Assembly: GCA_025937835.1 (NCBI GenBank)
Contig: JAICQO010000064.1
Location: 1 to 39,123 of the forward strand
Origin: Polyangiaceae bacterium
GTDB taxonomy: Bacteria; Myxococcota_A; Polyangia; Polyangiales; Polyangiaceae
DNA length: 39,123 nt
Direction of reading: 5' to 3'
Position 1 is the first letter of the stretch; every line of letters starts with the position of its first letter. Below the pieces are notes generated by a model. That model worked only from the letters and a program-made list of their open reading frames with translations. It did not search any database and had not been told where the DNA came from. Of this stretch, positions 2,410 to 37,414 are shown piece after piece. Both the position numbers and the translations under genes were made by a program.

Positions 2410-2481
2410 GCGGGAGTAACTCAGCGGTAGAGTGCCACCTTGCCAAGGTGGACGTCGAGGGTTCAAATCCCTTCTCCCGCT
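2410..2481 (+). tRNA. tRNA-Gly (anticodon GCC)
   Basis: The full cloverleaf can be folded by eye. The 7-bp acceptor stem is GCGGGAG (2410-2416) with CTCCCGC (2474-2480), with discriminator T at 2481. The anticodon stem CCACC/GGTGG encloses the loop TTGCCAA, giving anticodon GCC. The T arm has the loop TTCAAAT. CCA is not encoded. The 3' part from 2436 onward is the integration target of the island: it is repeated exactly at 37367-37414, so the tRNA gene stays intact after integration. Confidence 0.95.
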
Positions 2482-2483
2482 CT
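2436..2483 (+). repeat. attL: left 48-bp attachment repeat
   Basis: This is identical over 48 bases to 37367-37414. It covers the 3' strand of the anticodon stem region through the T arm and acceptor stem, plus two bases past the discriminator. Identity stops at 2435 (C versus T) and at 2484 (G versus A). Confidence 0.93.
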
Positions 2484-3852: not shown

Positions 3853-3854
3853 CG

Positions 3855-4175
3855 TCACCTCTTGGCGTGAGGCGATCCCGAGCGTTCCGGATCGGACTCT
3901 AGCAGCACTGGTGCGACGGCGGCATCACGCTCCGGCGCGGCGGTTCCCAGCATGAACCGCCGAAGCTCGGCGACTTCCCAGACGAGCGTTCCCCTTCCGC
4001 CGCGACGCCCAGCGGCGCGGATGCGGCCCTCCACCTTCGCTTTCCGCAGGCCGCTCGTTGAACGAAACCCGCAGAAGAGCGCGGCTTCGCGAGTCGTGAG
4101 CAAAGCGTCGGGGGGTAGCGCCCGCAGCTGTGCTGGGTCACGCGGCGTCGAGTCGAACGTCGAGGGAAAACGCAT
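3855..4175 (-). CDS. Excisionase/MerR-like HTH DNA-binding protein
   Basis: This encodes about 106 aa if it starts at ATG 4175. The central part (LLTTREAALFCGF, then a basic stretch, then TLVWEVAELRRFML) has the pattern of the winged-helix HTH_17/excisionase family: recognition helix, basic wing, and a final helix after a W/V-rich strand. Its stop codon TGA overlaps the alternative GTG start of the integrase gene, so the two are co-transcribed and probably coupled. A recombination directionality factor or repressor of int is the natural role, by position and fold. The frame stays open to 4352, but the residues before M(4175) look like out-of-frame Arg/Pro-rich sequence. The exact start is uncertain because no strong Shine-Dalgarno sequence is visible. 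Confidence 0.65.
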   Translation of the reverse strand: MRFPSTFDSTPRDPAQLRALPPDALLTTREAALFCGFRSTSGLRKAKVEGRIRAAGRRGGRGTLVWEVAELRRFMLGTAAPERDAAVAPVLLESDPERSGSPHAKR

Positions 4176-14301: not shown

Positions 14302-16470
14302 CTACCCCGAAAGGAGAGCTGCCACTCTCGCCGCCTCCGCGACGTCGAGCTCATCTCGAACAAAAGCGATGCGCCACAGCTCCGACGGCAGAAAGCGTTC
14401 AAATTTCTCACGCCCCAGCTCGCGTAGCCTCATCTTTTCGTCCGCGAACTCTGCTAGGCGCGACTCATTGGGCGATGCGGCAAATTCGCGCAAAATGCTT
14501 CCAAACTCGGCCGGTTCGCACTCGACGTCGAATCCGACGCCTTCGTCGGAATAGCGCACGCCGGCAGCTGCGAGAGCGATCGACAGCGTCTGCTGAACGC
14601 GGCTGCCTCCGAAGACGAACGCCCGGACGCCGACCTCGAACGGTTGCGCCACCGGCTCGAAGGCGTTGCACTTCGTCGCCGTTGCGCGGGCGTGTTCCAG
14701 CACATCGCGAGCCGTCTCGTCGATGTACGTCGGCACATTGGTCTCGACCAGCAGAGCGCGCATCTTCTCGTGCACCCGGCGATGGATCGCCCCGATTCTC
14801 GGAATGAACCAGGGCGCGCGGCGGCCCCGAGCAGGGCTTACCAGTACCTCCTGACGCTCGGGATCGATCTCCTCTACTCGCCAACGTCGTCCAGCAAGGA
14901 TCAGGTGTTCGCCCGGGGGTGGGGGGATCGCGATGGTTCCAATCAGGTCGGCGTTACAGACGACACGCAGCTCGGACGCGGCGTTGAATGCTGCGTAGAA
15001 CGTGTAGTGCTCGACGATCTTCTGGCCTTCGACGCCGAGGACCAGCGTTCGGTCGGGCATTTGCTCGAGAAGCTCAAGGCTACCGAGTTGGCGCAACAGT
15101 ACGGCAAAATCGGCGCGACTGACGCCGGAGAAGCTGCCGGCGTCCACAAGGCGATCATACAGTGGTGATGCCTGGATGCCCCCGGTTTCCGCCAGAACCG
15201 AGAGGACTTGGTGAACGAGCGTCGAGAGGTGGCTCCTTCCCGTGTCCGGCGGTTCCACGAACCCCTCCAGCATGAGCTCTATGACGGCGACGCCTTGAAT
15301 GAACGGGAGGTGAAGCAGGTCCCAGATGTCGGACTTCTCGGTGGGAGCGTCCTCGACGAAGAACCCTCTGAGGGTTCGTCGTTCGTTGGCCCGTCGTCCG
15401 CTGCGCCCGAGCCGCTGCGTGAGGGAAGCAACGGACCAGGGGGCCGCAACTTGGATGACTTCGTCGATCTCGCCGATGTCGATGCCCATCTCGAGCGTGT
15501 TCGAGCAGACGGCGGTGCACGGGCGATCCTGCCTGAGGCGGGCCTCCGCAGATTCGCGTCGCTCTTTCGACAGTGATCCGTGATGGACGACGATCTCGTC
15601 GGGCAAGCACATTTGCTCCGCCTGCGTGGCCATTTCATCCGCGACTTCCTCGATGCGGGACTTCGAGTTCGCGAACACCAGGTTCGTCTTCCCGTGGCAC
15701 GCGACGAGGATCGAACGGCCGAGCTCCGCGAGAGATGGGTCCGCCTCTCGGTCCGTGCCTTCACCGGGCGGCCTTCGCCAGATTGCTCGTACCCGGATAG
15801 CGATGGTCGAGGCGCTTGCCTCGTCAGAAATCAATGTAGCAGGAGCACCATTCGGTCGAAGCCAGCGAAGTGCTCGCTCCGGTTCCCCAATCGTTGCGGA
15901 GAGCCCGATGCGCGTGGGATTGCAGCCCGCTCGCAGCTGAAGGCGGTGCAACTGGCTGCGGAGTTGTGCTCCGCGCTCACTAGCGAGAAACGCGTGCAGC
16001 TCGTCGATGACGACGTAGTCGAGGCGCGCGAAGACCGCGGCCATCTTCGCCGGTCTCAGCACGAACATCGCTTCCAGCGACTCCGGCGTGATCAGGAGCA
16101 CGCCGCCGGGCGAATTGAGAAGATTCTTTCTCGCGCTGGCATCAACGTCCCCGTGCCATTTGTGGACCGGGAGATCCATGCGAGAGCAGAGATCCTCGAT
16201 CCGTCGAAACTGATCGTTGATCAACGCTTTCAAAGGACCAACGTACATTGCCCGGACGGAACCTCGCGGTTCGTCCGCGATCGCGGAAAGGATCGGAAGA
16301 AACGCCGCTTCGGTCTTTCCGCTCGCGGTCGGAGAACTGACGATGCAGTCGCCGCCGGCGTTGAGGAGGTGGACGATGCCTTGCTTCTGAACAGGGCGAA
16401 GCTCGGTCCACTTCATGTCCCAGAGCTTCCGCTGGACGGCCGGGTGCAAGAGGTCGAAAGCTGTCCCCAT
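14302..16470 (-). CDS. sngC: Shango-like helicase SngC (Lhr-type DEAD/DEAH SF2 helicase)
   Basis: This 722-aa helicase has Walker A SPTASGKT (46-53), DELH box (156-159), SAT (191-193) and motif VI QRLGRSGR (352-359), followed by a long C-terminal region typical of Lhr-like enzymes. It should be an ATP-driven DNA translocase or unwinding enzyme. Its ATG overlaps the stop of the preceding ATPase gene by one base (TGATG). It is the third gene of a coupled operon TerB protein-ATPase-helicase, which is the composition described for the Shango anti-phage system (SngA, SngB, SngC). The closest alternative is BrxHI of type 2 BREX, but no PglX or PglZ gene is present. The identity as Shango is by domain composition and order, not by alignment. 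Confidence 0.82.
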   Translation of the reverse strand: MGTAFDLLHPAVQRKLWDMKWTELRPVQKQGIVHLLNAGGDCIVSSPTASGKTEAAFLPILSAIADEPRGSVRAMYVGPLKALINDQFRRIEDLCSRMDLPVHKWHGDVDASARKNLLNSPGGVLLITPESLEAMFVLRPAKMAAVFARLDYVVIDELHAFLASERGAQLRSQLHRLQLRAGCNPTRIGLSATIGEPERALRWLRPNGAPATLISDEASASTIAIRVRAIWRRPPGEGTDREADPSLAELGRSILVACHGKTNLVFANSKSRIEEVADEMATQAEQMCLPDEIVVHHGSLSKERRESAEARLRQDRPCTAVCSNTLEMGIDIGEIDEVIQVAAPWSVASLTQRLGRSGRRANERRTLRGFFVEDAPTEKSDIWDLLHLPFIQGVAVIELMLEGFVEPPDTGRSHLSTLVHQVLSVLAETGGIQASPLYDRLVDAGSFSGVSRADFAVLLRQLGSLELLEQMPDRTLVLGVEGQKIVEHYTFYAAFNAASELRVVCNADLIGTIAIPPPPGEHLILAGRRWRVEEIDPERQEVLVSPARGRRAPWFIPRIGAIHRRVHEKMRALLVETNVPTYIDETARDVLEHARATATKCNAFEPVAQPFEVGVRAFVFGGSRVQQTLSIALAAAGVRYSDEGVGFDVECEPAEFGSILREFAASPNESRLAEFADEKMRLRELGREKFERFLPSELWRIAFVRDELDVAEAARVAALLSG

Positions 16471-17801
16471 CAGAGGTTGAACTCGACCAAGTCGTCATCA
16501 TCCGGTGCCGGCTCCGCGTTTGCTTCCGCGGATGCAGTCGGTGCAACCTGTTCTTTCTCCACTTGCCCGAGGGCGGCACGCCAATCGTGCGACGGCTCTG
16601 CCTCGAGCAAGTTCATCAAGCCGATGAATCGCATCACGGTGTCCCGCGGCGTCCGGAAGTAGTCCTCGCCCAGCGTGCGCCGGGAGTACTCGATGAAACT
16701 GTGGAGACCGTCGTCCGGGAGGAGGTGCTTGCTCTGATCGCCGCTCGCGAACACGTCCCGAACGCGCATCAACAGCACGAACAAATCCTCCGGCGTGAGA
16801 TTTTTCAGGCGAATCACCGGCCCAGAAAGGTCGACAAAATCCTCCTTTGCGAACTCGTTCGGGGCCAGCCGTGTGGCCAGGGCTTCGTAGCTGTAGAGGC
16901 CGCGCCGCTTGTCGGCCAGGCACTCGTCCGTCCCGGCGAACACGATCTCCAGCCCTTCGACCTGAGCTTGAAGACAGTCGTTCAGCATCCTCAAGATGGC
17001 TTCATAGTTCGCAGCGCGAGCCCGCGTGCTCGCAAGCCGATGGGAGAGCACGACCAGCTCATCGATGCAGACGAGCAGCCCCTTGTAGCCCATGATGCGA
17101 GCCAGCTTCGCGAACAGCTTGAGGTAATCGTAGAACTCGGCATCGTCGATGATCGCGCGCACGCCAAGGTCACGCCGTGCCTCGGTTTTCGTGTCGTACT
17201 CCGCGCGTAGCCATCGCATGGCGGCCTGCTGCGTGAGCTCGTCCCCCTGGCGCACGGCCTTGAGGTGACGGGTCAGGACGGTATGAACGTCGAACCCGCT
17301 CACCAAGTCCTGGAGAGGGCGCAAGCGTTCGGCAAGCAGCCGTTCCGTCGAAGCGTCGTCTCCGTTCGCTTCGTGCGCCACCTCGGAGATCCAGCGCTCA
17401 ATCACCGGCCCCAGGGCTCCTCCCTCCGGCTTCGCCTTGGAAGCCAGGTTCCGCATCAGCTCGGCGAACAGGGAGCGGGCCTGCCCGCCGCTTCCGTGAA
17501 GGCGCCGATCAGTGGTAATATCCGCACGCGCGACCAGGAAACCTTTCTCCAGTGCGACCGTGCTGACGAGGTTCAGGAAGAAGCTCTTGCCCGCGCCGAA
17601 CCGTCCGATCACGAAGCGGATCCCGGAACCACCTTCGCTGACGTGCTGCAAGTCGTTCAGGAGAGCAGCCACCTCAGCCTTGCGCCCCACCTGAATGTGT
17701 TGAAGGCCCACCCGAGGAACGACACCTGCCCGGAGAGCCTTCAGAATGGCCTGTCGATCCCGGTCTTTGATGCGCGGAGCACCCGCTGCGTTCGTAGTCA
17801 T
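16470..17801 (-). CDS. sngB: Shango-like ATPase SngB (BREX-type ATP-binding domain)
   Basis: This encodes a 443-aa P-loop ATPase. Walker A is GRFGAGKS (66-73) and Walker B is CIDE in GLLVCIDELVVL (245-248). The whole layout (GxxFxxxGFLVARADIT, an EFYDYL helix, AGTDE sensor region, then NLTPEDLFVLLMRV) fits the family annotated as BREX-system ATP-binding domain (BrxD-like, formerly DUF2791). The protein probably couples ATP hydrolysis to assembly of the TerB protein and the helicase on DNA. Start ATG 17801 overlaps the sngA stop (ATGA) and has AAGGGA upstream, so translation is coupled; an in-frame TTG at 17840 is less likely. The acidic C-terminal tail (DDDDLVEFNL) could be an interaction peptide for the helicase. 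Confidence 0.82.
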   Translation of the reverse strand: MTTNAAGAPRIKDRDRQAILKALRAGVVPRVGLQHIQVGRKAEVAALLNDLQHVSEGGSGIRFVIGRFGAGKSFFLNLVSTVALEKGFLVARADITTDRRLHGSGGQARSLFAELMRNLASKAKPEGGALGPVIERWISEVAHEANGDDASTERLLAERLRPLQDLVSGFDVHTVLTRHLKAVRQGDELTQQAAMRWLRAEYDTKTEARRDLGVRAIIDDAEFYDYLKLFAKLARIMGYKGLLVCIDELVVLSHRLASTRARAANYEAILRMLNDCLQAQVEGLEIVFAGTDECLADKRRGLYSYEALATRLAPNEFAKEDFVDLSGPVIRLKNLTPEDLFVLLMRVRDVFASGDQSKHLLPDDGLHSFIEYSRRTLGEDYFRTPRDTVMRFIGLMNLLEAEPSHDWRAALGQVEKEQVAPTASAEANAEPAPDDDDLVEFNL

Positions 17802-20800
17802 GCTGTCTGTCCCTTCAGAAGCTGCGACCGGACGTGCCAACTTTCCGAGTCCTCAATCAGGAAGTCGCCGTACATCTCGTCGGACCAGCTGTTCACGGCA
17901 TCCAGGATCGCGCCCGGCATGAGCTTCCGTCGATTGGAAAGGGCCCTCACCTCGTCCATCGTCCAAATCGGTTTGGTGAGAAGCTCCTCGAGCGCCGCAT
18001 GGTAGCGAACATCGAGGCCGTCAGCTCCGAAGGCTCCTCCCGCCTTCGGCCGTTGCGCGTCCTCAGCAACAGGTAGCGCCGGTGCGACCTCGCGCTCGGC
18101 GTCCTCACCGTCGTCGTCCTGGTCGAGCACTTCGGCAAGCATCGCAGCCACGTCGCGCGTGTCGGCGAGAATCGCGGCGATCGCAGCTTGATCTAGTTCG
18201 ACGGGACGCGGCTCGCCGGGCGGCGGCGGGATCGGTTCCCCAGCGCGTCCGGTCGTCGCCGGCCGAACCTCGACCACTCGGTCCGTCGCGAGGCGCGCTC
18301 CACTTGCCGCGATCGCGGCAGACAAGTCGGCATCTCTCAGGCCCAGTGCCTTGTACAAGCTGCGGAGCACTTCTTGCTCCTTTTCAGCAATCTCTCCATC
18401 CGCGGCAGCTACGGCCACGAGCACTCGCCCCACCTTCTCAATCTCGAACCGGGACCGGGTCGCCTGAAGCTTCCTTGCGACGCTGGTCGCAGATCCCGGT
18501 TGACGGGCCAGGAGATGCTGCAACGCGGTGAGTCGCTTTCTTAGACCTTCGTCGAGCGCAAGCACGTCGGCAAGCATGTCGATCATCGCACGAGTCTCCC
18601 TTTCGTCTACCGTCCCGTCAGCCAACGCGACGGCCATCTTCAACGTCATCAGTGAGAGCGCCGACGCGTAGAGCTTCTGATCCGGGCTCGAAGTATCGGC
18701 GCTTCGCCAGACCAGCATCTCATCGCTCGCTTGCGCTCCCTTCCGGTGCACACGACCATCTGGCTCGAGCGCATACCCCACGTCGGCTGCAATCTCGGCC
18801 ACTCTCCGGAGCTGAGCCGCCGAAAGCTTCGGCGCGCCACCCAGACCGGACACGTTCGCAAGTTGGGAGCAGCGTACGAGATGGAACTCCCCGAGACGAG
18901 GCGCAGCGGCGATCAATGAGTCCCACTCGTCGCGCGCGGGATGGTCGTACTTCTGCCTGAGCTCCGGAGGAAGCGCCGCCCACCCTTCTGCAGTCAGCTC
19001 GCCGTCGTTGCGATGCTTCAACGAGCTCGCCTTCCGGAGGTCGTCGATGCAGGCGTTCCAGATCTCGATGATGCGGCCAAACTGGCGCGCTCTTCCGAGT
19101 ACGTGGGGAACCGACAGGGCCAACGACTGTCCTATCCCCCTCAAGCTGCCGCTCGCAGGGTGATACTCGACCTTCGCGGGACGCTTTGCTGCATCCAGCA
19201 CAAGCCCGCTCCCGAGTTGCTCTCGGTAGCGCGCTTCGAATAGGCTATCGAGCTCGTCCGCGGCCCGCGTCGCAACGACGCTGCGCTTGGCTCCCTCCAG
19301 GATCGCAACGAGCCTGCGAGCAAGGTGCGCTCCGAGAGGTTGCCCTCTCAAGTAGTGCCAGGCCAGCAACGTCGTGGTTGCGGTTTCCGACTCGATGAGG
19401 ATCGGAGCAAGCGCCGTCGTGAGCTCTTCCTCGGTCAATTGCTGGAGCTGACGCAAGCTCGAAAAGGCGACGAACTCAGACAGATAGCTCCGGAGCGATG
19501 CGCTCCGGTCGGCATACGTCTGGAGTAGGCGTCGAACCTCGGCGACGGCCAGCGCTGTATCTGCGCCATCCCGAAGGACCCGCCATTCGAGCCCGTAGAA
19601 GAACATGAAGATGTATCCAACATCGATCGCTGGATCGACGCGCCCGCCCGCCATCCAGTCCAGATACCGTGCCCGTTGATTCGGGGTCGCTTCGAGGTAG
19701 CTCGGCCAGTACGGTAGGTCTTCAGCCCACTGCGCGGTGCCGACGTTGAACGGCGTCACGATGGTGCTCGCGTCAGCGCCGGTAACCACATCAGAAACGA
19801 ACGCGAGCGGGCGCTGAATGGTGCGCCCTGCAATGACGACGACCTCGTTCGGCCCGTAGAAGCGTCTGGCTCCGGACGGCGTAGCCGCACGTGTTTGGCG
19901 TGCGTTTTCAACCGCGGGGCTCGGTATCCGCGGGGGTGGTAGTGGCGGCGGTTGCCGCGACTGAGGACGCGGTGCTGGCTCCGGCGTCGGTCTGATCGGC
20001 GGAGCGGGGGGTAGAATAGGCGCGGGTGGCAACGGCGCAGAGCGGCTTGGCTCGGTCGCCGCCAGCGGAACGGTTAGCCCTGACTGTCGCGTGGACGGTG
20101 CCACCGATGCCTGCCGTGGCGCGACCTCAGGGCTCATCTGTGGGGTCAGTCGCGACGCTTCGTGTCGGTGAGGATCCGGGACCGGCGAGCTTGCGATCCG
20201 AACCAGCTCCTGAAGCGCACAAGCCGCATGGTACGTGGCTGCGGGATTGCTCGCCTGCAATACGATCTGGAGGCCATTCGAGGAAAGCAGCTTCAGCTCG
20301 CCGTACTCCAGGATCGGCAGCTGCCGGTTATTGTTGAAGCGAAGATCCGGGCCTCCGTTCTTGTTCACAAACCGCCACGTCTGCCCGACGGCCCGCGAGT
20401 CTCGCGGCACCACCCCCTCTTCGATGAACCGCGTCGTCTCATGATAGACGGACAGCCACGCGTACGGCACGGCGGCCAGTCGCTTTCCCTCGCGGACGAT
20501 CAAGTAGTCCGGAAGGAGCAGGATTTGTTGAGGCCCAACCGGTACTGACCACGGCTCCACGTTGAGCTCGATTCCCGACAACGACCCCGCAGCGCACCGG
20601 GTGCCGGTCCTTTGGATCAGCGTCCCGGCGCCCGCGTTGTACTTTGGGTCGCGAACACCGACGGAGGAATAGATGTGCCAGAGAGCTGCGGCCTGGCCCA
20701 GCGCCTCCCCGGCGGCGTTGCAGAGAGCGAGCCTGCCAACGATCTCGTCGTTGTCCACGTCGTACAGAATGCGAGCGGTGCGTCGTTCCCGGTCCCACCG

Positions 20801-21229
20801 ACGCACAAACACCCCGCCAACGACCGCCAGGACCATAAGAACGAGGCACAGGCCGGGCAGCCCGATCGTGACCAGCACCAGTCCGCCCGCGCTCCAGAGA
20901 TACACCTTGAACAGATTGGTCCGATTGAGCCGGCTCTGAACCTCTTGCAATGCCGCATCGGGACCAATCACGGCAAGCTGCTCAACCGATGCCGTCGAGA
21001 TCCATCCCGTCGACGGCGTTGCGACCGTGGGCGTCGATGGAAGTGGCAGCGCGACGTCGTTCAGCTTCGCCCGGTAGCTGAAACCGCCTCCGCTGAACGT
21101 CACATACGTCCCCCGAGGGCCCACCCCCACTCGAGCCCCTCGCACACCTGCCGACAGCCCGACCCCGCTTCGCGAGAAATTGACCCGAAGCGGCCCGAAC
21201 CTCACCGACTTACGGAATGAAAGACCCAT
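17798..21229 (-). CDS. sngA: Shango-like SngA: TerB-domain protein with N-terminal DUF4236 and membrane segment
   Basis: This is a multidomain protein of 1143 aa. Residues 1-53 (MGLSFRKSVRFGP to GGGFSYR) match the DUF4236 pattern. A hydrophobic stretch follows (109-142, one or two membrane helices). A beta-rich region comes next, then a Pro-rich linker (about 385-440). TerB-N-like (about 450-640), TerB (about 860-990, acidic VDERETRAMID and ADGEIAEKE) and TerB-C-like (about 1075-1140) regions follow. TerB domains bind metals and are linked to stress and phage response. SngA of Shango is defined by its TerB domain, so order and content fit; a DUF4236-membrane head on it may be unusual. ATG 21229 has GGGAGGG upstream. 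It is the first gene of the operon and lies 422 bases from the divergent NurA/HerA operon. Confidence 0.8.
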   Translation of the reverse strand: MGLSFRKSVRFGPLRVNFSRSGVGLSAGVRGARVGVGPRGTYVTFSGGGFSYRAKLNDVALPLPSTPTVATPSTGWISTASVEQLAVIGPDAALQEVQSRLNRTNLFKVYLWSAGGLVLVTIGLPGLCLVLMVLAVVGGVFVRRWDRERRTARILYDVDNDEIVGRLALCNAAGEALGQAAALWHIYSSVGVRDPKYNAGAGTLIQRTGTRCAAGSLSGIELNVEPWSVPVGPQQILLLPDYLIVREGKRLAAVPYAWLSVYHETTRFIEEGVVPRDSRAVGQTWRFVNKNGGPDLRFNNNRQLPILEYGELKLLSSNGLQIVLQASNPAATYHAACALQELVRIASSPVPDPHRHEASRLTPQMSPEVAPRQASVAPSTRQSGLTVPLAATEPSRSAPLPPAPILPPAPPIRPTPEPAPRPQSRQPPPLPPPRIPSPAVENARQTRAATPSGARRFYGPNEVVVIAGRTIQRPLAFVSDVVTGADASTIVTPFNVGTAQWAEDLPYWPSYLEATPNQRARYLDWMAGGRVDPAIDVGYIFMFFYGLEWRVLRDGADTALAVAEVRRLLQTYADRSASLRSYLSEFVAFSSLRQLQQLTEEELTTALAPILIESETATTTLLAWHYLRGQPLGAHLARRLVAILEGAKRSVVATRAADELDSLFEARYREQLGSGLVLDAAKRPAKVEYHPASGSLRGIGQSLALSVPHVLGRARQFGRIIEIWNACIDDLRKASSLKHRNDGELTAEGWAALPPELRQKYDHPARDEWDSLIAAAPRLGEFHLVRCSQLANVSGLGGAPKLSAAQLRRVAEIAADVGYALEPDGRVHRKGAQASDEMLVWRSADTSSPDQKLYASALSLMTLKMAVALADGTVDERETRAMIDMLADVLALDEGLRKRLTALQHLLARQPGSATSVARKLQATRSRFEIEKVGRVLVAVAAADGEIAEKEQEVLRSLYKALGLRDADLSAAIAASGARLATDRVVEVRPATTGRAGEPIPPPPGEPRPVELDQAAIAAILADTRDVAAMLAEVLDQDDDGEDAEREVAPALPVAEDAQRPKAGGAFGADGLDVRYHAALEELLTKPIWTMDEVRALSNRRKLMPGAILDAVNSWSDEMYGDFLIEDSESWHVRSQLLKGQTA

Positions 21230-21651
21230 CTAAGCCCTCCCACGACCCAGTCTTGAAGCGACTTCCATGCCCTGTTCTCAAAGCTGCCCGCATGTTCCGA
21301 AAACGATCGACTCGACGACCGAATAGCATCGACCGATTGAAGACAGAGATCAAGGCTGATGAGCTCCCTCTCCTCTTCACCGATGTCGGAGCAATGGTCA
21401 AGCCGACACCCTTTGCATCGACTCCGAAGTATGTTCGACTGAAGGGCTATGACTTCATCGAGGCGGTCGTCCGGCTTGCTGTCCTCCTCGCCGGAACGCG
21501 CGGGGCGTAGAGGCGCGTCGCCACCCAGCGACTACGTCGAGAACCTGCCACAACGCCCTATGGCACCCCGGTTCCGGGCACTCAGCCCACGCCCTCTCCA
21601 ACAGGCAGTCAGTGCGACTCGGGACTGCGCTGCGCTGATGGAACCCCCGGG
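21230..21651. other. Divergent intergenic region between the Shango-like and NurA-HerA-SbcDC operons
   Basis: These 422 bases must contain the promoters of both operons. I could not identify a convincing -35/-10 pair on either strand. A plus-strand frame at 21217-21510 (97 aa; internal ATG 21292) has fairly normal composition (for example LKTEIKADELPLLFTDVG) and might be a small gene or remnant. It overlaps the start of sngA antisense, so it is not called as a CDS. Confidence 0.45.
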
Positions 21652-22455
21652 ATGAGTTTCCTTTCCAAGTTGAAGGAAGTTCTCTCCACGAGAACTACCG
21701 GGGCAACGAGAACTCCAATCCCCAGCAGTCTTTCGTGGCGCGTCGTCCTTTCAGAGATCGGCGCTTCTAGGCCGACATGTCCGTACTGCGCGCGCGCCTT
21801 CGATAGGATGCCGCAGCGAAAACGTTCTTGTCCCGAGTGCGGAGGCGTCCTGTACTCGCGAAAGCGTGCGGTGGACGGAACCAAAGTCTTGCTGACCGAG
21901 GCACAAGCTTTGGAAGGCGAAGCGCAAGACGCGCTCGTGACCCTGGCAGCGGAGGGCGCCGGCAACGCCGAACTCGACGGCCTGGTCGGCTCGTTGCACG
22001 TGACTCTCGACCGCATGCCCACCGCAGACGAGGTCGTCTGCCAATACCTCACGCGCTCCGCGGCCAAGCATGCAGAGCTCTGTAACTGGGGGCTGTACCG
22101 GAACGCGCGCTTCAACCTCGCCGAATCATACGCGCGACGACGGTCTTACGAAGAGGCGCTGCGGCTGTTCCTCGAGGTCTCGCTCATCGACCTCAACGGG
22201 CCGCGCAACCGTGGAACCAAGGATCCGGCTGCCCTGCGGCGCATTCCGCCTTTTGAGCCGCATGCGGGTTCGCTAGCGTCCGGTGTTCTCAGCCGCACCA
22301 TCGACGTCATCACCGAGCTGAAATTCTCCCGAGACGAACTCCAGCGCCTGTTTGAGTCCGTGGCAAGCGCCATGACGACCGTTACCAACCTTCCGCGCCC
22401 GACGAGCGCCGCATGGCAAGAGTTGTCCGCGGCTCTTGCCGATGGGTGGAGCTAA
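21652..22455 (+). CDS. Zinc-ribbon / helical-repeat protein heading the NurA-HerA-SbcDC operon
   Basis: This encodes 267 aa. Near the N-terminus is a four-cysteine zinc ribbon: CPYC (about residues 43-46) and CPEC (about 61-64). The remainder is alpha-helical, with a TPR-like pair of helices (NARFNLAESYARRRSYEEALRLFLEVSLIDL). No catalytic motif is visible, so an adaptor or DNA/protein-binding role is likely. The next gene (nurA) starts just past its stop (or overlaps by 14 bases if ATG 22442 is used), so it belongs to the same operon. I do not recognise a named family. It could recruit the resection complex to a target or regulate it. Confidence 0.7.
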   Translation: MSFLSKLKEVLSTRTTGATRTPIPSSLSWRVVLSEIGASRPTCPYCARAFDRMPQRKRSCPECGGVLYSRKRAVDGTKVLLTEAQALEGEAQDALVTLAAEGAGNAELDGLVGSLHVTLDRMPTADEVVCQYLTRSAAKHAELCNWGLYRNARFNLAESYARRRSYEEALRLFLEVSLIDLNGPRNRGTKDPAALRRIPPFEPHAGSLASGVLSRTIDVITELKFSRDELQRLFESVASAMTTVTNLPRPTSAAWQELSAALADGWS

Positions 22456-22465
22456 CACGCTGCCA

Positions 22466-23455
22466 ATGTCGTCACTATTCGGAAGCTTCCGCGTGCGTAT
22501 CGACCCTTGGGAGGTCGAGTACGGGGATCAGACTCCCCTTGCGCCGGTCGATGATCCGGCGCCCGAGCACGTGCGCCACGAGATCGAGGTGCGCGATGGT
22601 GAATGGCAAGCGATTGTGCCCCTTGCCAGCGGCACTCTCCCACGTCGAGTTGTCTTCATCGACGGCGTGCGCCGACTGGAAGCACGCGTTCAGGCTCGTC
22701 AAGGCGAGCAGCTCATCTACGGCGGCTTTGGCAGCTACGCCGTCGGGGCGGTCGAGGTGGAGGATCTCTCTGCGTCGTTTGGGACCATACGCGTCTTTCG
22801 ATCCGCCGTTCTTGGATCTGGCGCGTGCTTGCCAGAGCCGATCCATGTCCGGCCGGGGCTAATCTATCAACCGGAGAGTGCGCCGAACTCGGAAGTCGAC
22901 GGGCCACTGCGTCACATTCAGAACTCGATGCGACACGCGGAAGCAAAACTTGCAGGAGACCTCTCTCGGGAAGACACACTCACGATCGTTGATGGACCAC
23001 TCAGTTTCGAGCCGGAAGGTCGAGGAGTCGCACTCGGCTATATCAAGCGTGTTCACCGACTGTATCTTCCGGCCAAGTTCATTCCCCTGCTGGCGACGTT
23101 GCCCGCCGGCGCAAGGACGCCTATGTTCGCAATTCAGACAGCCAACTCCGGTTTCGGTCGATACTCTTGGTTTCAACGCCTCGCTGAGCCCGGTACCGGC
23201 GCGACCGAGATGCATGGGATCGTTCGCCTCGAGGTGATCGCGAGCGTCGGCATTGACGCCGCTCGCGAGCTAGCCAACGCCGCTACGACGTGGTTGCCGC
23301 GCACCGCGCCGAAGCGTGGCCGAGATCCTCGCTCACCTCAGAATCTTCTCCCCATCGGCGCGCTCGAACAGAAGCTACGAGTCGCGCTCGGCGACGCTCG
23401 CCTGTTTCGCCGTTGGCTCGAGACGCTTGTAGCAAAGGAAGCGTCTCATGACTGA
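22466..23455 (+). CDS. nurA: NurA-like nuclease
   Basis: This encodes about 329 aa. The hallmark NurA pattern is present: an N-terminal acidic site in VVFIDGVRR (D66), a second in LTIVDGPL (D176), a conserved Lys in LGYIKRVH (K194), and a C-terminal HGIVRLEV segment. NurA is a 5'-3' nuclease that works with the HerA hexamer to resect DNA ends. The HerA gene follows directly, overlapping by 8 bases, which strongly supports the assignment. Starts: ATG 22466 is chosen; ATG 22442 would overlap the previous gene. I assigned it from motif placement and gene order, without alignment. Confidence 0.72.
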   Translation: MSSLFGSFRVRIDPWEVEYGDQTPLAPVDDPAPEHVRHEIEVRDGEWQAIVPLASGTLPRRVVFIDGVRRLEARVQARQGEQLIYGGFGSYAVGAVEVEDLSASFGTIRVFRSAVLGSGACLPEPIHVRPGLIYQPESAPNSEVDGPLRHIQNSMRHAEAKLAGDLSREDTLTIVDGPLSFEPEGRGVALGYIKRVHRLYLPAKFIPLLATLPAGARTPMFAIQTANSGFGRYSWFQRLAEPGTGATEMHGIVRLEVIASVGIDAARELANAATTWLPRTAPKRGRDPRSPQNLLPIGALEQKLRVALGDARLFRRWLETLVAKEASHD

Positions 23456-25121
23456 GTCAACCCCCCGCCAGAGCACGTGTGTCGGAGTCGTGCTCGGCTC
23501 CGTGGATGCGGGGCCGCTCGAATTCTGGGTCGGCGTCTCCAGCAGTAAGGACGTTCAACTAGACGACCTCGTGGTTGCAGAGCTGACCACTTCCGAAGGC
23601 GTGCTCGTTAGCTTCTTCGGCATCGTCGACATCGTACGAAAACGCTACGAGGGCGCGACTTTCGATTCGGATGCATTTCGCGCGTCAGAGGGCACGCTAC
23701 CCGTTGAGGTCTCCTACGCGGCGCACATTCAGGTGACCCGAGTCGATCCAGAAATCTTCGTTCCGCCGCAGCCAGGCAGCGAGGTGCGCATCGCTCGAGG
23801 AGCGGAATTCGAGAGGGCTCTCTTCTTCGATCGCATGAAGAAGAAGGTCGCCATCGGATCCACGCGCACCGGGGATCCTGTGTTCGCCAACCTTGAGTTT
23901 CTTGACGGCACTCGCGGCGCGCACGTCTCCATCAGCGGTGTATCCGGCGTGGCGACAAAGACCAGCTACGCGACCTTTCTTCTCTACTCGCTCTTCCACT
24001 CTGGTGCACTTGGCGCAGAGGCGGCAAACACCCGCGCCCTAATCTTCAACGTTAAGGGTGAGGACCTTCTCTGGCTCGACAAACAGAACAGCCGTGCTGA
24101 CGACGCTCTCATCAAGGAGTACCGGAGACTTGGTCTACCGCCTGGCCCGTTCGGAAGCGTTGGGTTCTTCGCACCAGCCCGCCGACACGGCGACGTTGTG
24201 ATGCCTGAAGTCGGCAGCCGTCACGAAGGAGTTCGTGCCTACGTCTGGACCCTTCGCGAGTTCGCCCGGGATCAACTGCTCCGGTTCGCCTTTGCTGAAT
24301 CGAACGATGCACGCTCGCAGCTGTCTTTCCTCATCTATCGCGTCGAACGAGTACTAGAGCGCGCCGCGCGAGACGGAGATCAGAACGATCCGGGACTGAC
24401 GGTGGACGGGACACGCATCCAGTCGTTCGATAACCTCGTTGAGCTGTTGGACACGGCGTCTCTTGACCAGATGGTGCCCAACGCCGCATCGGGGACGTTG
24501 GACGCTTTTCGCCGGCGCTTTCATGCAGCCGCCCAGCATATGGGACACCTCGTACGAGGGGATCGTGAGACGACGCGGCATCGCGTCGACTGGCAGGCGA
24601 ACCAAGTCACGGTTGTAGATATCCACACGCTCCATGACACAGCTCAGATGTTTGTCGTCGGTGTATTGCTCAAACGCATGATGCATGACAAGGAGACCCA
24701 GGGCACCGCACGTCCGCTCGTGTTTGTCGTCCTCGACGAGTTGAACAAGTACGCGCCTCGAACCGGTTGGAGTCCTATCCAGGACGTCCTGCTCGACATC
24801 GCCGAACGCGGGCGTTCGCTTGGGGTGTGTCTGTTCGGAGCACAGCAGACAGCGAGCGAAGTCGAACGTCGTATCGTCTCCAACGCGGCAATGCGGGTGG
24901 TCGGCCGACTCGATGCCGCCGAAGCAGAGCGTGGCGAGTACGGGTTCCTCACCCGGGTCGCGAGGCAGCGCGCCACAATGTTGTCGCCGGGAAGCATGAT
25001 CGTGACGCAACCTGAAATCCCGACACCGGTCTTACTCAAGTTCCCGTTCCCTTCCTGGGCTACTCGCCAGAGCGAGGTTCGCGAGCAGGACGACGGAGAA
25101 GACCCGTTTGCGCGAACGTGA
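23448..25121 (+). CDS. herA: HerA-like hexameric ATPase / DNA translocase
   Basis: This encodes 557 aa. The N-terminal ~115 residues form a HAS-barrel-like beta domain (LEFWVGVSSSKDVQLDDLVVAE, SFFGIVDIV), typical of HerA. The P-loop reads GVSGVATKT (164-172, Lys171), lacking the usual glycine before Lys. The Walker B box is VVLDELNKYAP (about 426-436), followed by AERGRSLGVCLFGAQQ and the RVVGRLDAAEAERGEYG segment, characteristic of the HerA/FtsK superfamily. HerA pumps DNA and activates NurA. AAGGA lies before the ATG, which overlaps the nurA stop. Only the variant P-loop is odd; the same wording recurs, as far as I recall, in other HerA-like ATPases, so activity is plausible. Confidence 0.85.
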   Translation: MTESTPRQSTCVGVVLGSVDAGPLEFWVGVSSSKDVQLDDLVVAELTTSEGVLVSFFGIVDIVRKRYEGATFDSDAFRASEGTLPVEVSYAAHIQVTRVDPEIFVPPQPGSEVRIARGAEFERALFFDRMKKKVAIGSTRTGDPVFANLEFLDGTRGAHVSISGVSGVATKTSYATFLLYSLFHSGALGAEAANTRALIFNVKGEDLLWLDKQNSRADDALIKEYRRLGLPPGPFGSVGFFAPARRHGDVVMPEVGSRHEGVRAYVWTLREFARDQLLRFAFAESNDARSQLSFLIYRVERVLERAARDGDQNDPGLTVDGTRIQSFDNLVELLDTASLDQMVPNAASGTLDAFRRRFHAAAQHMGHLVRGDRETTRHRVDWQANQVTVVDIHTLHDTAQMFVVGVLLKRMMHDKETQGTARPLVFVVLDELNKYAPRTGWSPIQDVLLDIAERGRSLGVCLFGAQQTASEVERRIVSNAAMRVVGRLDAAEAERGEYGFLTRVARQRATMLSPGSMIVTQPEIPTPVLLKFPFPSWATRQSEVREQDDGEDPFART

Positions 25122-25130
25122 GGGACCGGA

Positions 25131-26291
25131 ATGAGGATCGTCCATACAAGCGATTGGCATGTTGGCCGCAGATGGAGGAACATCTCACGACTTGACGAGA
25201 TGGAGGCCGTCCTCGAACACCTTGCCGGCTTCATCGAGCGCGAGGCGGTCGACCTCGTGCTGCACACTGGGGACATCTTCGACAGTCGCAATCCGCCCGC
25301 CGACGCCGAGCGTCTCGTAAATCACTTTTTCGTTCGCGTTGGCCGTGCCGGGGCCCACATGGTGGTGATCGCCGGCAATCATGACGATCCGCAGCGACTT
25401 GATGCTCGATCGCCGCTTACCGAGTACGCCAATGTTCAAATCCTAGGCAGACCGCGATCCGCCCAGCACGGCGGCCAGCGCGTCATTACCACTCGCTGCG
25501 GCGACAAGGCTGTCGTTGCGGCGCTCCCGTTTGCGTCGCCCGGGGCCTGGGTTTCCGCCCTGGACCTAGTAGGAGAAGAGGATAGCGCTCGCAGCAAGTA
25601 CGCGCGAATGTTCCAACGCGCAGTCCAGAACCTCTCGCAGCCGTTTCAGGCCGACGCCGTGAATCTCCTGATGGCGCACACCCATCTCGAAGGCGCAGTC
25701 TTCGGTGAGTCCGAGCGTCGCGTACACATCGGCGAGGACTGGGCTGCCACCGCGCAGACGCTACCGACTTCCGCAACTTACATCGCGCTCGGGCACATCC
25801 ACAAGCCACAGAAGGTCAACGGAACGTTGCCGGCTTACTATGCCGGGTCCCCGATCCAGATGGACTTCGGCGAGGTTGGACAGGCGAAGACCTTCGTCGT
25901 CGTCACGGCGAAGCCAGGCAAGCCGGCGCAGATCGAGCACATCAAGTACGACGGCGGCATCCCGCTGGTGGATCTCCGGGTCACACTGGAAGAACTCGAT
26001 AGACTCGCTGGTCAGCATCGCGCCGGTTGTTGGCTGCGCGTGACGGTTCCTCTCGTCGAGAACGATCCGGATCTCAACCGCAAGGTTCGTGACTTGCTGC
26101 CCAACGCCCTTATCGTGAAGCCTGAACTACCCCCAACCGAAAAGCAGGCTACGATTCCCCTTGCCGAGGGCGCTTCACCATCGGAACACTACTCGACGTA
26201 CCACCTCCTCGAGTACGACCGCGAACCCGATTCCGAGGCAATTGAAGCTTTCGAACAGCTGTACGCGACCGTGTCAGGCGCGGAGGTCTGA
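25131..26291 (+). CDS. sbcD: SbcD / Mre11-type DNA double-strand-break nuclease
   Basis: This encodes 386 aa with all phosphoesterase motifs of SbcD/Mre11: DWH (8-10), GDIFD (47-51), GNHD (82-85), AHTH (182-185) and GHIH (221-224), which bind two metal ions. The C-terminal part (PVRVTLEELD-like LDRLAGQHR) is the capping and SbcC-contact region. With SbcC it forms the nuclease complex that cleaves DNA ends and hairpins. The gene starts 10 bases after the herA stop with GAGGGA as ribosome-binding site, and sbcC follows after 3 bases. A housekeeping sbcCD pair is expected elsewhere in such a genome, so this is probably an accessory copy. Confidence 0.95.
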   Translation: MRIVHTSDWHVGRRWRNISRLDEMEAVLEHLAGFIEREAVDLVLHTGDIFDSRNPPADAERLVNHFFVRVGRAGAHMVVIAGNHDDPQRLDARSPLTEYANVQILGRPRSAQHGGQRVITTRCGDKAVVAALPFASPGAWVSALDLVGEEDSARSKYARMFQRAVQNLSQPFQADAVNLLMAHTHLEGAVFGESERRVHIGEDWAATAQTLPTSATYIALGHIHKPQKVNGTLPAYYAGSPIQMDFGEVGQAKTFVVVTAKPGKPAQIEHIKYDGGIPLVDLRVTLEELDRLAGQHRAGCWLRVTVPLVENDPDLNRKVRDLLPNALIVKPELPPTEKQATIPLAEGASPSEHYSTYHLLEYDREPDSEAIEAFEQLYATVSGAEV

Positions 26292-26294
26292 GCG

Positions 26295-29200
26295 ATGCGG
26301 CCACGTCATCTTACGGTCGATGGACTCGCCTGCTTCAAAGACAAGCAGGAACTCGATCTGAGCGCGCTTGACCTTTTCGCCATTTCCGGCCCTACGGGCG
26401 CTGGCAAGAGTACGCTCCTCGACGCGCTGACGCTGGCGCTCTACGGCCAAGTGCCGCGTGTTTCAAAACAGGACCGGTCGGAGATGATCTCCGCGTCCCG
26501 TGACCGGGCGAGTGTGCTTCTAGAGTTCCGGGTAGGCGACGACCAGTATCGCATCGCTCGCACGCTTCGACGAGGTGGTGGCCATCAGGTGCGCCTAGAC
26601 AAGCACGACGGTTCCGACTTCACGACCAACCTAGCCGATCAGGTTCGGGAAGCAGACGAGAAGGTGGCCGAGATCCTTGGCCTCGACGCAACGGCCTTCA
26701 TGCAGGCGGTCGTCCTTCCGCAGGGCGAGTTTGCCAGGTTCCTCAAAGCTCAGCCCAGCGAGCGACGAAGCATGCTGCGATCACTCCTGCGTCTAGACTT
26801 CTACGAATCGATGCGAGCGCAAGCCGAACGGATCTCGAACTCGAAGCGAAGCGCGGTCGCAACCACGAGGAAGGTGCTCGCGGACGAATACGCTGGCGTT
26901 ACCGAAGACTCGCTCGACGAGCTGCACCACCGCCACAGCGCCCTTGTAGACACGCTGAAGGAGCTGCGCGAGAGCAGCGACGAGGCGCAAAGAAAGCTCC
27001 TGTCTGTTCGCGAGAAGCACCGGTTGAGCGTTGATCTCACGCGAAACGAAGCGGAGCTCCTCCGGCTGGAGAAAGACGGCAACGAGGTCGCCCGCCTTCG
27101 GGAGCGGGTGCACGCATCCCAACGCGCACAACCCATCGTCTCGCTACTTGATGAGGCGCACCGCGCCGACGCCGAGGCTGAAGATTCCCTCAGGAATCTG
27201 GAACTTGCTCAGAAGCAACAGAGCGAAGCGACCGATGAAAGCGAGCGGGCATCCGTCGCCTTGGAAGACGCTGAAACAGCTACCGAAGATATTGCTGCGC
27301 ATCGCAACCAGATCGCGTTGCTCAATCAGGCTGTCGGCCGCCTTCAAGAGGCTCAGAACCTCGAGGACACGATCGCGCGGCAGGTCGATGAGGCTGACGA
27401 GATCCGTGGCGAGCTGACGGTTCTCGATGGTTGCCTGAAGGACTCACTGATCGCGGAGGAGAATCACTCGCGAGAGATCGAGCAAGCCCGCAACTCGATG
27501 CGAACATCCGGGTACAGCGCAGACATCAATGATCTGCTCGACGGCGTTCGCGAACGGGCGGCCAGGCTCGGATCTGATAGGAGCAAAGCAGCCGAACTCG
27601 CCGGTCGGGTCTCGGAGAAGCAACAGGAAGCCGAAGAAGCTGCGGCGGAATTGGCGACTATCGACAACGCTCTGGAGAAGTTCGCCGACGCTCAGGAGAA
27701 GCACTCGGACGCGATCGAGCGCGCTCGCGAATCTATGCAGGCATCTGGGTACGACGCATTCTTGGACGAGCTGCTCGACGGTGTTCGCGAGCAGGCGACT
27801 GAGCTTGGAACTGCGCGAAGGAACGTCGATGAGACGACCGGCCGGTATTCCGAGAAGGAGGTCGAGATCGAGGAGCTTCGGGACAAGCTCTCGCCGCTCG
27901 AACACGATGTAGAGACTAAGCGCGCAGCCGTGGTGGAAGCGGCGGCCGGCGTCCAGCAAGCAGACGATGCTTTGCAGCACGCGCGCCAACTTGACGCTGC
28001 CAATCACCTTCGCGAAGGGCTCAAGCCCAACGCCCTCTGCCCGGTATGCGAGCGACCTGTTACCTCACCGCCGCCAGCGAACATAACGGCCGAAGTCGAC
28101 TCGGCCAAAAGCCATGTCACCGGCGCGAAGAAGCGGCTCGAGCGGATCGAGACCGAGAACAACACCGCTAAGCAAGCGTGCACTCGGGCGAAGATCAACC
28201 TCGAGGCCGAGGAGAGAAACCTCGCACATCTCGCAACACTTTCCGTCAAGGCACAGGAGCAAGTTGTCGCCAAGGAGGCGGCCCTGCGCAAGTCGCTCGG
28301 CGATGCGGCACCACCCGACGATGTCGCCGTCGAGACATGGATCGCGAACTCCCTCGTATCCTTAGCGATCGCCCGAAAGGCCTACGAGACGGCGAGGAGC
28401 GAGCTCGACGAGGTTGAGCGCGCGCTGCAGCGCGGACAAGCAGAGTCGAAGTCCGCCCAGGTCCGGCACGCCGAGAGACTTCGAACGCGGAGTCGAATCG
28501 AAGACGAGCTCAGAGCCGAGCGAGAAATGCTAGGAGCGTCCGAGAACGGGATCGCTGCCGAAGATAGATCCCTTCGCGGATTACTCGGGGAGCAGGCACC
28601 GTCGGAGGACATTGCGATCGAGACCTGGATCGCGAACTCCGTGTCCTCGTTGGCCGCTGCTCGAAAGGTCCACGACGCGGGTAAGCGAGATCTCGACGAG
28701 GCGGAACGCAAACTGCAGGGAGCACAGTCGGAGTCGAAGCTCGCCGAAACCCGACGAGCGGAAAAGCAGAGGGCCTGGGATCAAGTTAGAATCGAGCTAG
28801 AATCAACCCGCGTGCGGCTGAGCAAACTACGAGCGGAAGTCTCTGCAATCACTACGTCGGACGACCCGGCCGCCGAGGCGGCAGCGCTCGACGACAAGAT
28901 TGAGGCGCTCCAGGGCGCGATGAGGACCGCGGCAACGGTGTCGGCGGATGCTAAAAACCGATTGACCGCAGCCACGGAAGCTCTGAAGCAGAGGGCTGAA
29001 GCAGCCGAGAGGGCAACCCAAGAGGCTCAAGCGCGCGCGTTGCGGCGGGACAAAGCCATCACTGGCGCTGGATTCGAGAACGAGGCGGCGGTGCAGGGTG
29101 CGGTGTTGGAGCCGAATGAGATCGCTGCGCTGGCTGAGCGAATTCGCAAGCACGAGGACGACCTACACGCCGTCAAGCGGCGGCTGCAGGAGTTAGCGGA

Positions 29201-29912
29201 CGCGCTCGGGGACGTTCGAGTCGCCGATGATGACCTTCAAGCGGCCAACGACGCGGCCGTCATTCTGTCTGCCGAGGTTCAGGCGAAGCATGGCGACCAG
29301 AAGACACTCGAGGCCGAGATCGAGCGGATGAAGGAGCGCCTTGAGCGCTCGCTAAAGATACGCGAACAGCTGGCCTCGGACGAGAGCGCGCTCCGCACAT
29401 ACAATCAGATGGCTTCCGACTTGCGCAGCGACAAATTTCAGGCGTACTTGCTGCAGGAAGCTTTCACCGAGCTCGTACGAGGAGCCTCAGCGAGGCTGCT
29501 CACGCTCACCAGCGAACGCTACTCGCTCTTGTACAGGGACGACAACATCGTCGTCGTCGACAACGACAACGCAGGCGAGACGAGGATCAGCGACACCCTG
29601 AGCGGCGGGGAAACATTCCTCACGTCGCTATCGCTTGCGCTGGAGTTAAGCAACCAGGTTCAACGCGCGGCGGGCGCTGTGAATCTCGACAGCCTCTTCA
29701 TCGACGAAGGCTTCGGCACCCTAGATCCGGACACCTTGGCCATCGTTGCAGAAGCGCTCCAGAACCTGCGCGTCGGGGGGCGCATGGTCGGGATCATCAC
29801 GCACATCCCGGAACTGCGCGACGAGTTTCCCCAGCGAATCATCGTGACCAAGCATCAGGGTTACTCGACCGTCGAGGTGCACGGTGCACCGGTCGAGGCA
29901 GTGCATGGCTGA
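26295..29912 (+). CDS. sbcC: SbcC / Rad50-type SMC ATPase with zinc hook
   Basis: This encodes 1205 aa. Walker A is GPTGAGKST (32-40); a Q-loop region lies at about 138-150 (VVLPQGEFARFL). Two long coiled-coil arms (about 180-570 and 600-1010) flank the zinc hook CPVC (582-585). The signature motif TLSGGETF and Walker B LFIDEGFGTLD are near the C-terminus. This is the complete ATPase subunit of the SbcCD/Mre11-Rad50 complex, which tethers and processes DNA ends. Odd: both arms contain recent internal tandem duplications (79-residue units at 360-517 before the hook, 96-residue units at 663-854 after it). It is the last gene of the five-gene operon. It ends 66 bases before the truncated kinase. 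Confidence 0.95.
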   Translation: MRPRHLTVDGLACFKDKQELDLSALDLFAISGPTGAGKSTLLDALTLALYGQVPRVSKQDRSEMISASRDRASVLLEFRVGDDQYRIARTLRRGGGHQVRLDKHDGSDFTTNLADQVREADEKVAEILGLDATAFMQAVVLPQGEFARFLKAQPSERRSMLRSLLRLDFYESMRAQAERISNSKRSAVATTRKVLADEYAGVTEDSLDELHHRHSALVDTLKELRESSDEAQRKLLSVREKHRLSVDLTRNEAELLRLEKDGNEVARLRERVHASQRAQPIVSLLDEAHRADAEAEDSLRNLELAQKQQSEATDESERASVALEDAETATEDIAAHRNQIALLNQAVGRLQEAQNLEDTIARQVDEADEIRGELTVLDGCLKDSLIAEENHSREIEQARNSMRTSGYSADINDLLDGVRERAARLGSDRSKAAELAGRVSEKQQEAEEAAAELATIDNALEKFADAQEKHSDAIERARESMQASGYDAFLDELLDGVREQATELGTARRNVDETTGRYSEKEVEIEELRDKLSPLEHDVETKRAAVVEAAAGVQQADDALQHARQLDAANHLREGLKPNALCPVCERPVTSPPPANITAEVDSAKSHVTGAKKRLERIETENNTAKQACTRAKINLEAEERNLAHLATLSVKAQEQVVAKEAALRKSLGDAAPPDDVAVETWIANSLVSLAIARKAYETARSELDEVERALQRGQAESKSAQVRHAERLRTRSRIEDELRAEREMLGASENGIAAEDRSLRGLLGEQAPSEDIAIETWIANSVSSLAAARKVHDAGKRDLDEAERKLQGAQSESKLAETRRAEKQRAWDQVRIELESTRVRLSKLRAEVSAITTSDDPAAEAAALDDKIEALQGAMRTAATVSADAKNRLTAATEALKQRAEAAERATQEAQARALRRDKAITGAGFENEAAVQGAVLEPNEIAALAERIRKHEDDLHAVKRRLQELADALGDVRVADDDLQAANDAAVILSAEVQAKHGDQKTLEAEIERMKERLERSLKIREQLASDESALRTYNQMASDLRSDKFQAYLLQEAFTELVRGASARLLTLTSERYSLLYRDDNIVVVDNDNAGETRISDTLSGGETFLTSLSLALELSNQVQRAAGAVNLDSLFIDEGFGTLDPDTLAIVAEALQNLRVGGRMVGIITHIPELRDEFPQRIIVTKHQGYSTVEVHGAPVEAVHG
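27372..27845 (+). repeat. Tandem duplication in the ascending SbcC coiled coil (2 x 237 bases)
   Basis: Two adjacent 79-residue units are clearly homologous. For example, HSREIEQARNSMRTSGY and LLDGVRERAARLG of the first unit match HSDAIERARESMQASGY and LLDGVREQATELG of the second, exactly 237 bases apart. Unit boundaries are approximate. Confidence 0.85.
28281..28856 (+). repeat. Tandem duplication in the descending SbcC coiled coil (2 x 288 bases)
   Basis: Two adjacent 96-residue units share phrases such as VAVETWIANSLVSLAIARK and IAIETWIANSVSSLAAARK, with equivalent codons 288 bases apart. They lie on the opposite side of the zinc hook from the 79-residue duplication. Boundaries are approximate. 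Confidence 0.88.
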
Positions 29913-37366: not shown

Positions 37367-37414
37367 CACCTTGCCAAGGTGGACGTCGAGGGTTCAAATC
37401 CCTTCTCCCGCTCT
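37367..37414 (+). repeat. attR: right 48-bp attachment repeat
   Basis: This is a perfect 48-base copy of 2436-2483 (the tRNA-Gly 3' end). The 5' half of the tRNA is absent upstream, so this is not a functional tRNA. It marks the right junction of the island; the host sequence originally behind the tRNA follows. Confidence 0.93.

Follow-up and report, generated by a model that had tools for sequence, protein, structure and literature searches.

Background

Shango is a three-gene anti-phage system consisting of a TerB-like protein, an ATPase, and a helicase, and it was reported to give modest protection on plates (PMC10250203); in the available portions of that report, HerA and NurA are mentioned 0 times and the Shango passages name no nuclease partner or mechanism. 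Bacterial NurA-HerA is presented, in the accessible part of its source, as the resection machinery of only a few bacteria, with a model of resection during repair (PMC9960219), while the clustered nurA-hepA-sbcD-sbcC genes of Oceanithermus appear as repair genes in the excerpted text of another (PMC5448004). Here, we analyzed a 39,123-nucleotide stretch (hereafter “the window”), which is contig JAICQO010000064.1 (C197) of a 6.9-Mb Polyangiaceae assembly (GCA_025937835.1), and in which a Shango operon stands head-to-head with a NurA-HerA-SbcD-SbcC operon, SbcCD being Mre11-Rad50. We consider it probable, at roughly 60%, that this is a composite defense locus on an integrative element, in which, judging from sequence comparisons, a Shango core would team with exchangeable end-resection nucleases.

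ICETh1 of Thermus thermophilus encodes a NurA-like nuclease and a translocase of the HerA/FtsK family, TdtA, which are needed for DNA donation according to the available parts of two reports (PMC5365140, PMC7767461), and an ATPase-nuclease defense complex is, as far as its accessible text goes, the subject of PMC11291478. Among the matches listed from open-license PMC literature, a scope that leaves preprints aside and does not imply absence from print, none paired Shango or TerB with HerA, NurA, SbcC, or AddAB, and among those listed for HerA-NurA with defense, islands, or SbcCD, the Shango pairing was absent. One jumbo-phage paper in these listings (PMC7823757) includes both terms, TerB and SbcC.

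The window resembles Shango in all three PADLOC matches and in the gene order SngA-SngB-SngC, and differs from Shango, as far as the available description goes, by a DUF4236/membrane N-terminus on SngA and by the divergent end-resection operon beside it. Its HerA and NurA are homologous to the Deinococcus radiodurans NurA-HerA complex (PDB 7f6d; phmmer against chain 7f6d_B, E 4.9e-144, and profile against chain 7f6d_H, E 4.3e-43, respectively), whereas in the window both genes share an operon with SbcD and SbcC that is part of an integrative island. The same four functions are clustered in the archaeal Mre11-Rad50-NurA-HerA genes and in Oceanithermus, which are described, in the portions at hand, as repair genes without mention of Shango. 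Further, HerA-nuclease anti-phage pairs, i.e., DUF4297-HerA and SIR2-HerA, have a HerA ring plus a nuclease as effector, as in the window; the window's partner is NurA plus SbcCD, and its HerA aligns weakly with the HerA-like protein of Yoonia discussed below (29% over 98 amino acids).

Two divergent operons on one integrative element

The Shango operon occupies the minus strand, with SngA, SngB, and SngC contiguous in open reading frames (ORFs) that overlap or abut from 21229 to 14302. SngA (17798..21229) matched its PADLOC model with 188 bits (E 1.2e-55) over residues 441-1131, and TerB_N, TerB, and TerB_C all scored above the Pfam cut-offs. At 1143 amino acids, versus 528 for the model, it has an additional N-terminal DUF4236 domain and a putative two-helix membrane hairpin read from the sequence by eye, an N-terminus common to loci L164 and L169; a search for literature combining TerB and DUF4236 returned none. 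SngB (16470..17840, probably starting at the ATG near 17801) is a BrxD-like AAA ATPase (Pfam BrxC_BrxD E 2e-138) for which PADLOC preferred the SngB model over BrxD (513 versus 164 bits), and SngC (14302..16470) is an Lhr-like DEAD/DEAH helicase with Pfam DEAD and Helicase_C domains that matched the SngC model over nearly its full length and better than BrxHI (759 versus 440 bits). A search for solved structures related to SngB or SngA found none.

Between the operons lie 422 base pairs (bp; 21230..21651, from the ORF coordinates), which, when scanned, gave no match to a sigma-70-like promoter or a terminator. The plus-strand operon opens with a zinc-ribbon protein of 267 amino acids (21652..22455, CxxC pairs read from the sequence), for which 282 genomes of the phylum and the viral contigs yielded no relative beyond itself. 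NurA follows (22436..23455, start probably the ATG near 22466), with IDGxR-type and DGP motifs that align with 7f6d_H and whose residues we take to be catalytic. HerA (23448..25121), a DNA translocase of the Deinococcus type, matched 7f6d_B at profile E 6.8e-177, the phmmer match falling in two stretches that take in most of the protein, and HerA relatives were not found in viral contigs. The Mre11-like nuclease SbcD (25131..26291) scored above cut-off for both NCBIfam TIGR00619 (188 bits) and Metallophos. The Rad50-like ATPase SbcC (26295..29912) passed the Pfam cut-offs for AAA_23 and SbcC_Walker_B, stayed below that of TIGR00618 (308 bits, cut-off 478.5), and has a CPVC hook motif read by eye.

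An earlier note, made from the sequence alone, had named the genes of both operons, put them 422 bases apart in one island, and suggested that they might act together. Its identities and coordinates agreed with the ORFs and with the PADLOC, Pfam, NCBIfam, and 7f6d matches, including PADLOC models for all three Sng proteins, and it was right about NurA and HerA even though a Pfam scan up to E 0.05 gives no match for either.

The shared island likewise held up. Its left end (attL, 2436-2483) is the 3′ end of a plus-strand tRNA-Gly(GCC) gene (2410..2482, ARAGORN), repeated exactly as a 48-bp direct repeat at the right end (attR, 37367..37414, from direct-repeat matching), and the 46-bp core of this repeat occurs at these two sites only in the whole assembly, even with up to 3 mismatches allowed. 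The repeats are 100% identical, and the left one adjoins a tyrosine integrase on the minus strand (2521..3858; Pfam PF00589 E 1.8e-8, PHROG integrase E 1.3e-32), so that the three marks of an integrative element (integrase, tRNA target, and flanking direct repeats) are all present, and the element of ~35 kilobases (kb) bounded by them holds both operons.

Recurrent pairing and apparent module exchange

Adjacency of Shango and NurA-HerA-Mre11-Rad50, which the earlier note had proposed to look for in other genomes, is not confined to the window but recurs, in other gene orders, in an Acidobacteriota genome and two haloarchaeal plasmids. The Acidobacteriota genome (G788, from 396 genomes of that phylum, to which locus L048 below also belongs) has SngA-SngB-SngC-NurA-HerA-SbcD-SbcC on a single strand, versus head-to-head in the window, with Sng gene order and neighbors taken from ORFs and tblastn rather than annotation. 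HerA, NurA, and SbcD are 81%, 70%, and 72% identical between G788 and the window, versus 48%, 42%, and 27% for SngB, SngC, and SngA, so that the Shango halves are far more diverged than the modules. In the plasmid of archaeon DL31 (L212), SngC is followed by Mre11-Rad50-NurA-x-HerA (names by annotation), and a plasmid of a second haloarchaeon, Natrinema zhouii (L222), has the same eight-gene order SngABC-Mre11-Rad50-NurA-x-HerA.

These haloarchaeal loci show the reverse divergence: SngA, SngB, and SngC are 90%, 92%, and 85% identical, while Mre11, Rad50, NurA, and the linker are 44%, 41%, 44%, and 46% identical (HerA, cut in the DL31 locus, was left out), and because of this difference, it seems that modules of like type were swapped while the Shango beside them stayed nearly constant. 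In Rhodobacterales plasmids with SngB 94-99% identical, the neighbors differ in type, being AddAB, SbcCD, DUF4297-HerA-SbcCD, or a SIR2-ATPase pair. Varying end-processing modules next to a near-constant Shango are the pattern to be expected if a core had a nuclease arm open to exchange.

Separately, 17 plasmid Shango loci were chosen for variety at a time when their neighbors were not known, except that three Rhodobacterales loci among them were chosen after the first had shown AddAB. Flanks of 6 kb on each side (L197-L199), 8 kb (L200), or at most 9 kb (L209-L220) were opened, with L208, L213, and L220 reaching the record end. An end-processing module lay in the stretch fetched at 6/17 loci, or at 4/12 once loci whose SngB is nearly identical in the SngB tree are counted as one (L208-L211, L199/L220, and L214/L219). 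AddB-AddA, annotated as PD-(D/E)XK and UvrD-helicase proteins, follow SngC in L208, L215, and L216, in the last with one small gene between. SbcD-SbcC precede SngA in L209, and in L211 (Yoonia), where SngA is split by an IS3 element, SngC is followed by DUF4297, a HerA-like ATPase, a DNA repair exonuclease (SbcD), and an AAA ATPase (SbcC); the DL31 plasmid is the sixth. Among the loci without a module, L210 has a convergent pair of SIR2 and a HerA-like ATPase (34% identical to the Yoonia protein), L199 has an exonuclease-domain protein in convergent orientation, and an AAA ATPase lies upstream in both L214 and L219.

Loci found through the partner gene (L186, L222-L225) stand outside this count; the samples on the partner side are small and non-random, the opened AddB and SbcD records lying mostly near known Shango loci or being close relatives of one. 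They include further SbcD-SbcC-SngA loci (L223 and L224, one with insertion sequences within SbcC) and a further SngABC-AddB-AddA locus (L225), alongside a Sphingomonas plasmid (L226) where AddB-AddA stand behind a methyltransferase, a helicase, an ATPase, and a restriction endonuclease, without Shango. Three of four haloarchaeal NurA plasmid records were opened, of which two have Shango; the other, from Halobaculum (L221, 4531-14753), has Mre11-Rad50-NurA-x-HerA without it, with a phospholipase-D-family protein upstream in Shango's place, and is 61-69% identical to Natrinema in NurA, Mre11, HerA, and the linker and 51% in Rad50. At greater distances, SngB and AddB are ~195 kb apart in Mesorhizobium L-2-11, and SngB and HerA 2.4 Mb apart in Nonomuraea.

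A linked system or two modules sharing an island

Several observations weigh against a linked system. In the window itself, the operons are divergent and thus separate transcription units. SngB at E 1e-60 was found in 18/377 Myxococcota genomes, and with the window set aside as the seed, HerA, NurA, SbcCD, and AddAB were absent from the stretches opened at 17/17 of the other Shango loci, 6 of them on pieces shorter than 9 kb; the nearest Shango (L169; SngB 73% and SngC 65% identical) showed no module in the 20 kb opened. Annotation and tblastn likewise found no end-processing module at 11/17 plasmid loci, and 3/6 of the positives belong to a group of four Rhodobacterales Shangos that are nearly identical and of which three were chosen after seeing the first. 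Because SbcD relatives (70 records) and AddB relatives (60 records) are common on plasmids, many of them alphaproteobacterial, some of the Shango-SbcCD/AddAB adjacency there may be coincidence; ZorA plasmid loci, tried as a matched control, gave 24 records of which 20 were Klebsiella, too few distinct loci. On the SngB tree (36 rows), four HerA-linked Shangos require 4 changes and any resection partner 7, numbers similar to those from shuffled labels, and with an open backbone the well-supported branches force just 2 origins for the three NurA-HerA rows; by itself the tree is weak evidence for repeated pairing.

The survey from the HerA side adds to these points. At least 532 candidate stretches with HerA relatives were confirmed in genome contigs, and comparisons used the best 80, with neighborhoods of up to 10 kb or to the contig end. 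SbcD was nearby in 74/80, SbcC in 69/80, and NurA in 56/80, while SngA or SngB was found in 0/80, a single weak SngC match being a helicase hit. At E 1e-40, SngB was found in 0/20 HerA genomes, the controls being without a match too and the same model having matched the 18/377 Myxococcota genomes. On these counts and the lone L169, the pairing had been taken for a one-off, a reading overturned by G788, DL31, and Natrinema zhouii. Among the 14 loci that have some neighborhood and whose HerA reaches 64% identity or more to that of the window (the window, L047-L055, G728, G788, G807, and G808, leaving out L056 and L057 on 3.2-kb contigs and G804-G806 and G576 with HerA at 59-61%), just two, the window and G788, have Shango; none was seen at G804-G806 and G576 either. 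The closest module (L047, HerA 89%, on a contig that starts within NurA and has a serine recombinase, by eye, downstream of SbcC) comes from a genome in which SngB was not found. The Shango-resection pairing recurs in unrelated genomes and is not a fixed unit; Shango loci without a module and NurA-HerA loci without Shango are both numerous.

As a side observation, the best 80 HerA loci include many Acidimicrobiia, Chloroflexota, and Acidobacteriota, a distribution that exceeds the “few bacteria” given in the 2023 structure paper.

The main rival explanation, which we regard as unlikely while giving it real weight, is that two independent modules share a defense island, NurA-HerA-SbcCD being a mobile DNA-degrading defense unit that would land beside Shango, Wadjet, and Gabija-like systems because all of these accumulate in islands. 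The neighborhoods of the module fit this explanation. The window falls in a 12-row HerA clade of mixed phyla (Shimodaira-Hasegawa-like approximate likelihood ratio test support 100), where, without Shango, Wadjet JetABC lies downstream of the module's SbcC in L048 (Acidobacteriota, L048 8974-21344), a GajA-like gene and PDC-S68 adjoin it in L049, and CapP-like genes stand beside it in L048 and L052; one of the 81 neighbor ORFs from nine loci of the clade matched DarG strongly. In an actinobacterial HerA clade (ten loci, 132 neighbor ORFs), the full gene set of one system was not found, and single ORFs matched the ZorD helicase model (E 2.6e-126), DpdE (E 4.9e-116), and, more weakly, mad3, DrmD, and PDC-S03. 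Of the plasmid HerA records L227 and L228, both without Shango, the latter (Streptomyces) has HerA-SbcD-SbcC and a NurA-like protein (30% identical to the window NurA) adjoining TIGR02680/TIGR02678/DUF2397 genes, which we take to be Wadjet-like, and an ImmA/IrrE gene. Further, neither the closest Shango nor the closest module is accompanied by the other. Two patterns are left unexplained by sharing of an island alone: the one-strand operons in which the module comes directly after SngC (G788, the two haloarchaea, and Yoonia), and the apparent swapping of same-type modules next to Shangos that are nearly identical.

Service to the mobile element or ordinary repair

A second alternative, which we regard as improbable, is that the module serves the mobile element itself, i.e., DNA processing for transfer or repair. 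As described in the available parts of its two reports, ICETh1 resembles the window's island in its insertion in the 3′ end of a tRNA gene, its 47-bp repeats, its integrase, its NurA-like nuclease, and its HerA/FtsK-family translocase. The function of ICETh1 is DNA donation, though, and SbcCD and Shango, both on the window's island, go unmentioned in those parts. Further, the nearest solved relative of the window HerA is the Deinococcus complex, its relatives are usually SbcD-linked (the 74/80 above), and Pfam scans of 20 window proteins found no relaxase or secretion genes.

As to repair, host contig C36 has two PDDEXK_1 genes in tandem, a pattern also present in some congeners (e.g., G002 and G006); because one matches RecB/AddA models under the cut-off (TIGR00609, 169 bits) and the other (945 amino acids) matches TIGR03623 alone and weakly, we name the pair “AddAB-like.” In a search of 20 genomes for SbcC, 0/7 congeners had a match at E 0.001, and on these two grounds the NurA-HerA-SbcCD module does not look like the housekeeping resection set of the genus. 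An ordinary DNA-repair operon captured by the island, with no defense role, would suit the abundance of SbcD-linked HerA relatives, the cluster described in part for Oceanithermus (PMC5448004), and a Myxococcota genome (G212, = L055) where the NurA-HerA-SbcCD operon lies near hslU-like and other ordinary-looking genes (by eye), yet it is very improbable given the host's AddAB-like genes, the lack of SbcC matches in the 7 congeners, and the defense genes among the neighbors in the window's HerA clade.

Proposed mechanism

Returning to the composite defense locus, we infer that the two operons may cooperate against phage DNA. SngA and SngB, the latter an AAA ATPase, would recognize the invading DNA or mark it, and they would load the helicase SngC to open or unwind it. 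Ends that are blocked or form hairpins would then be cleared by SbcCD (Mre11-Rad50), and the ring formed by HerA would feed the duplex into NurA for degradation. As domain scans found no nuclease domain in SngA, SngB, or SngC, the nuclease arm would be exchangeable.

Somewhat more tentatively, and at a little less than an even chance, comparison of the loci suggests a modular defense family in which Shango, as the core, provides recognition and loading and the resection arm is interchangeable (NurA-HerA-Mre11-Rad50, AddAB, SbcCD, or DUF4297-HerA-SbcCD), with three-gene Shango using host resection enzymes. A Shango without a module neighbor is then predicted to borrow RecBCD, AddAB, or SbcCD from its host. 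The recurrent link in bacteria and archaea would give a testable answer to the question of what destroys Shango's target DNA; it would imply that Mre11-Rad50, NurA-HerA, and AddAB have been repeatedly recruited as defense effectors and, if true, that the three-gene Shango systems known so far rely on recombination nucleases of the host.

Other features of the island

Both flanks of the island are duplicated on contigs C204 and C41 (94% DNA identity), the copies ending at most ~0.45 kb from the site with the junction itself unassembled, which points to a probable second strain in the assembly that may lack the island. A 37-bp, 92% copy (37611-37647) of 37390-37426, i.e., part of the right repeat plus flank, is perhaps left over from a previous insertion at this site. 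Searches around the 80 HerA loci, the 17 Shango loci, and G212 yielded no relatives of the integrase.

The plus-strand cargo at 6122-14190 is unusual, comprising a lipoprotein-like ORF of 1362 amino acids (by eye), a second lipoprotein-like ORF, a matrixin-like metalloprotease just under the Pfam cut-off, and an apolipoprotein N-acyltransferase Lnt above the NCBIfam cut-off. On the minus strand, 31082-33756 holds a DUF4365 protein (Pfam E 7.5e-15, weak PDC-M02A matches) that overlaps by 4 bases an ORF of 345 amino acids, uracil-DNA-glycosylase-like by eye and without a match in Pfam and PHROG scans; the two are possibly an additional defense pair. Beyond them, also on the minus strand, 33823-35844 encodes a RadD/type I restriction-like helicase with an excisionase-type helix-turn-helix at its N-terminus.

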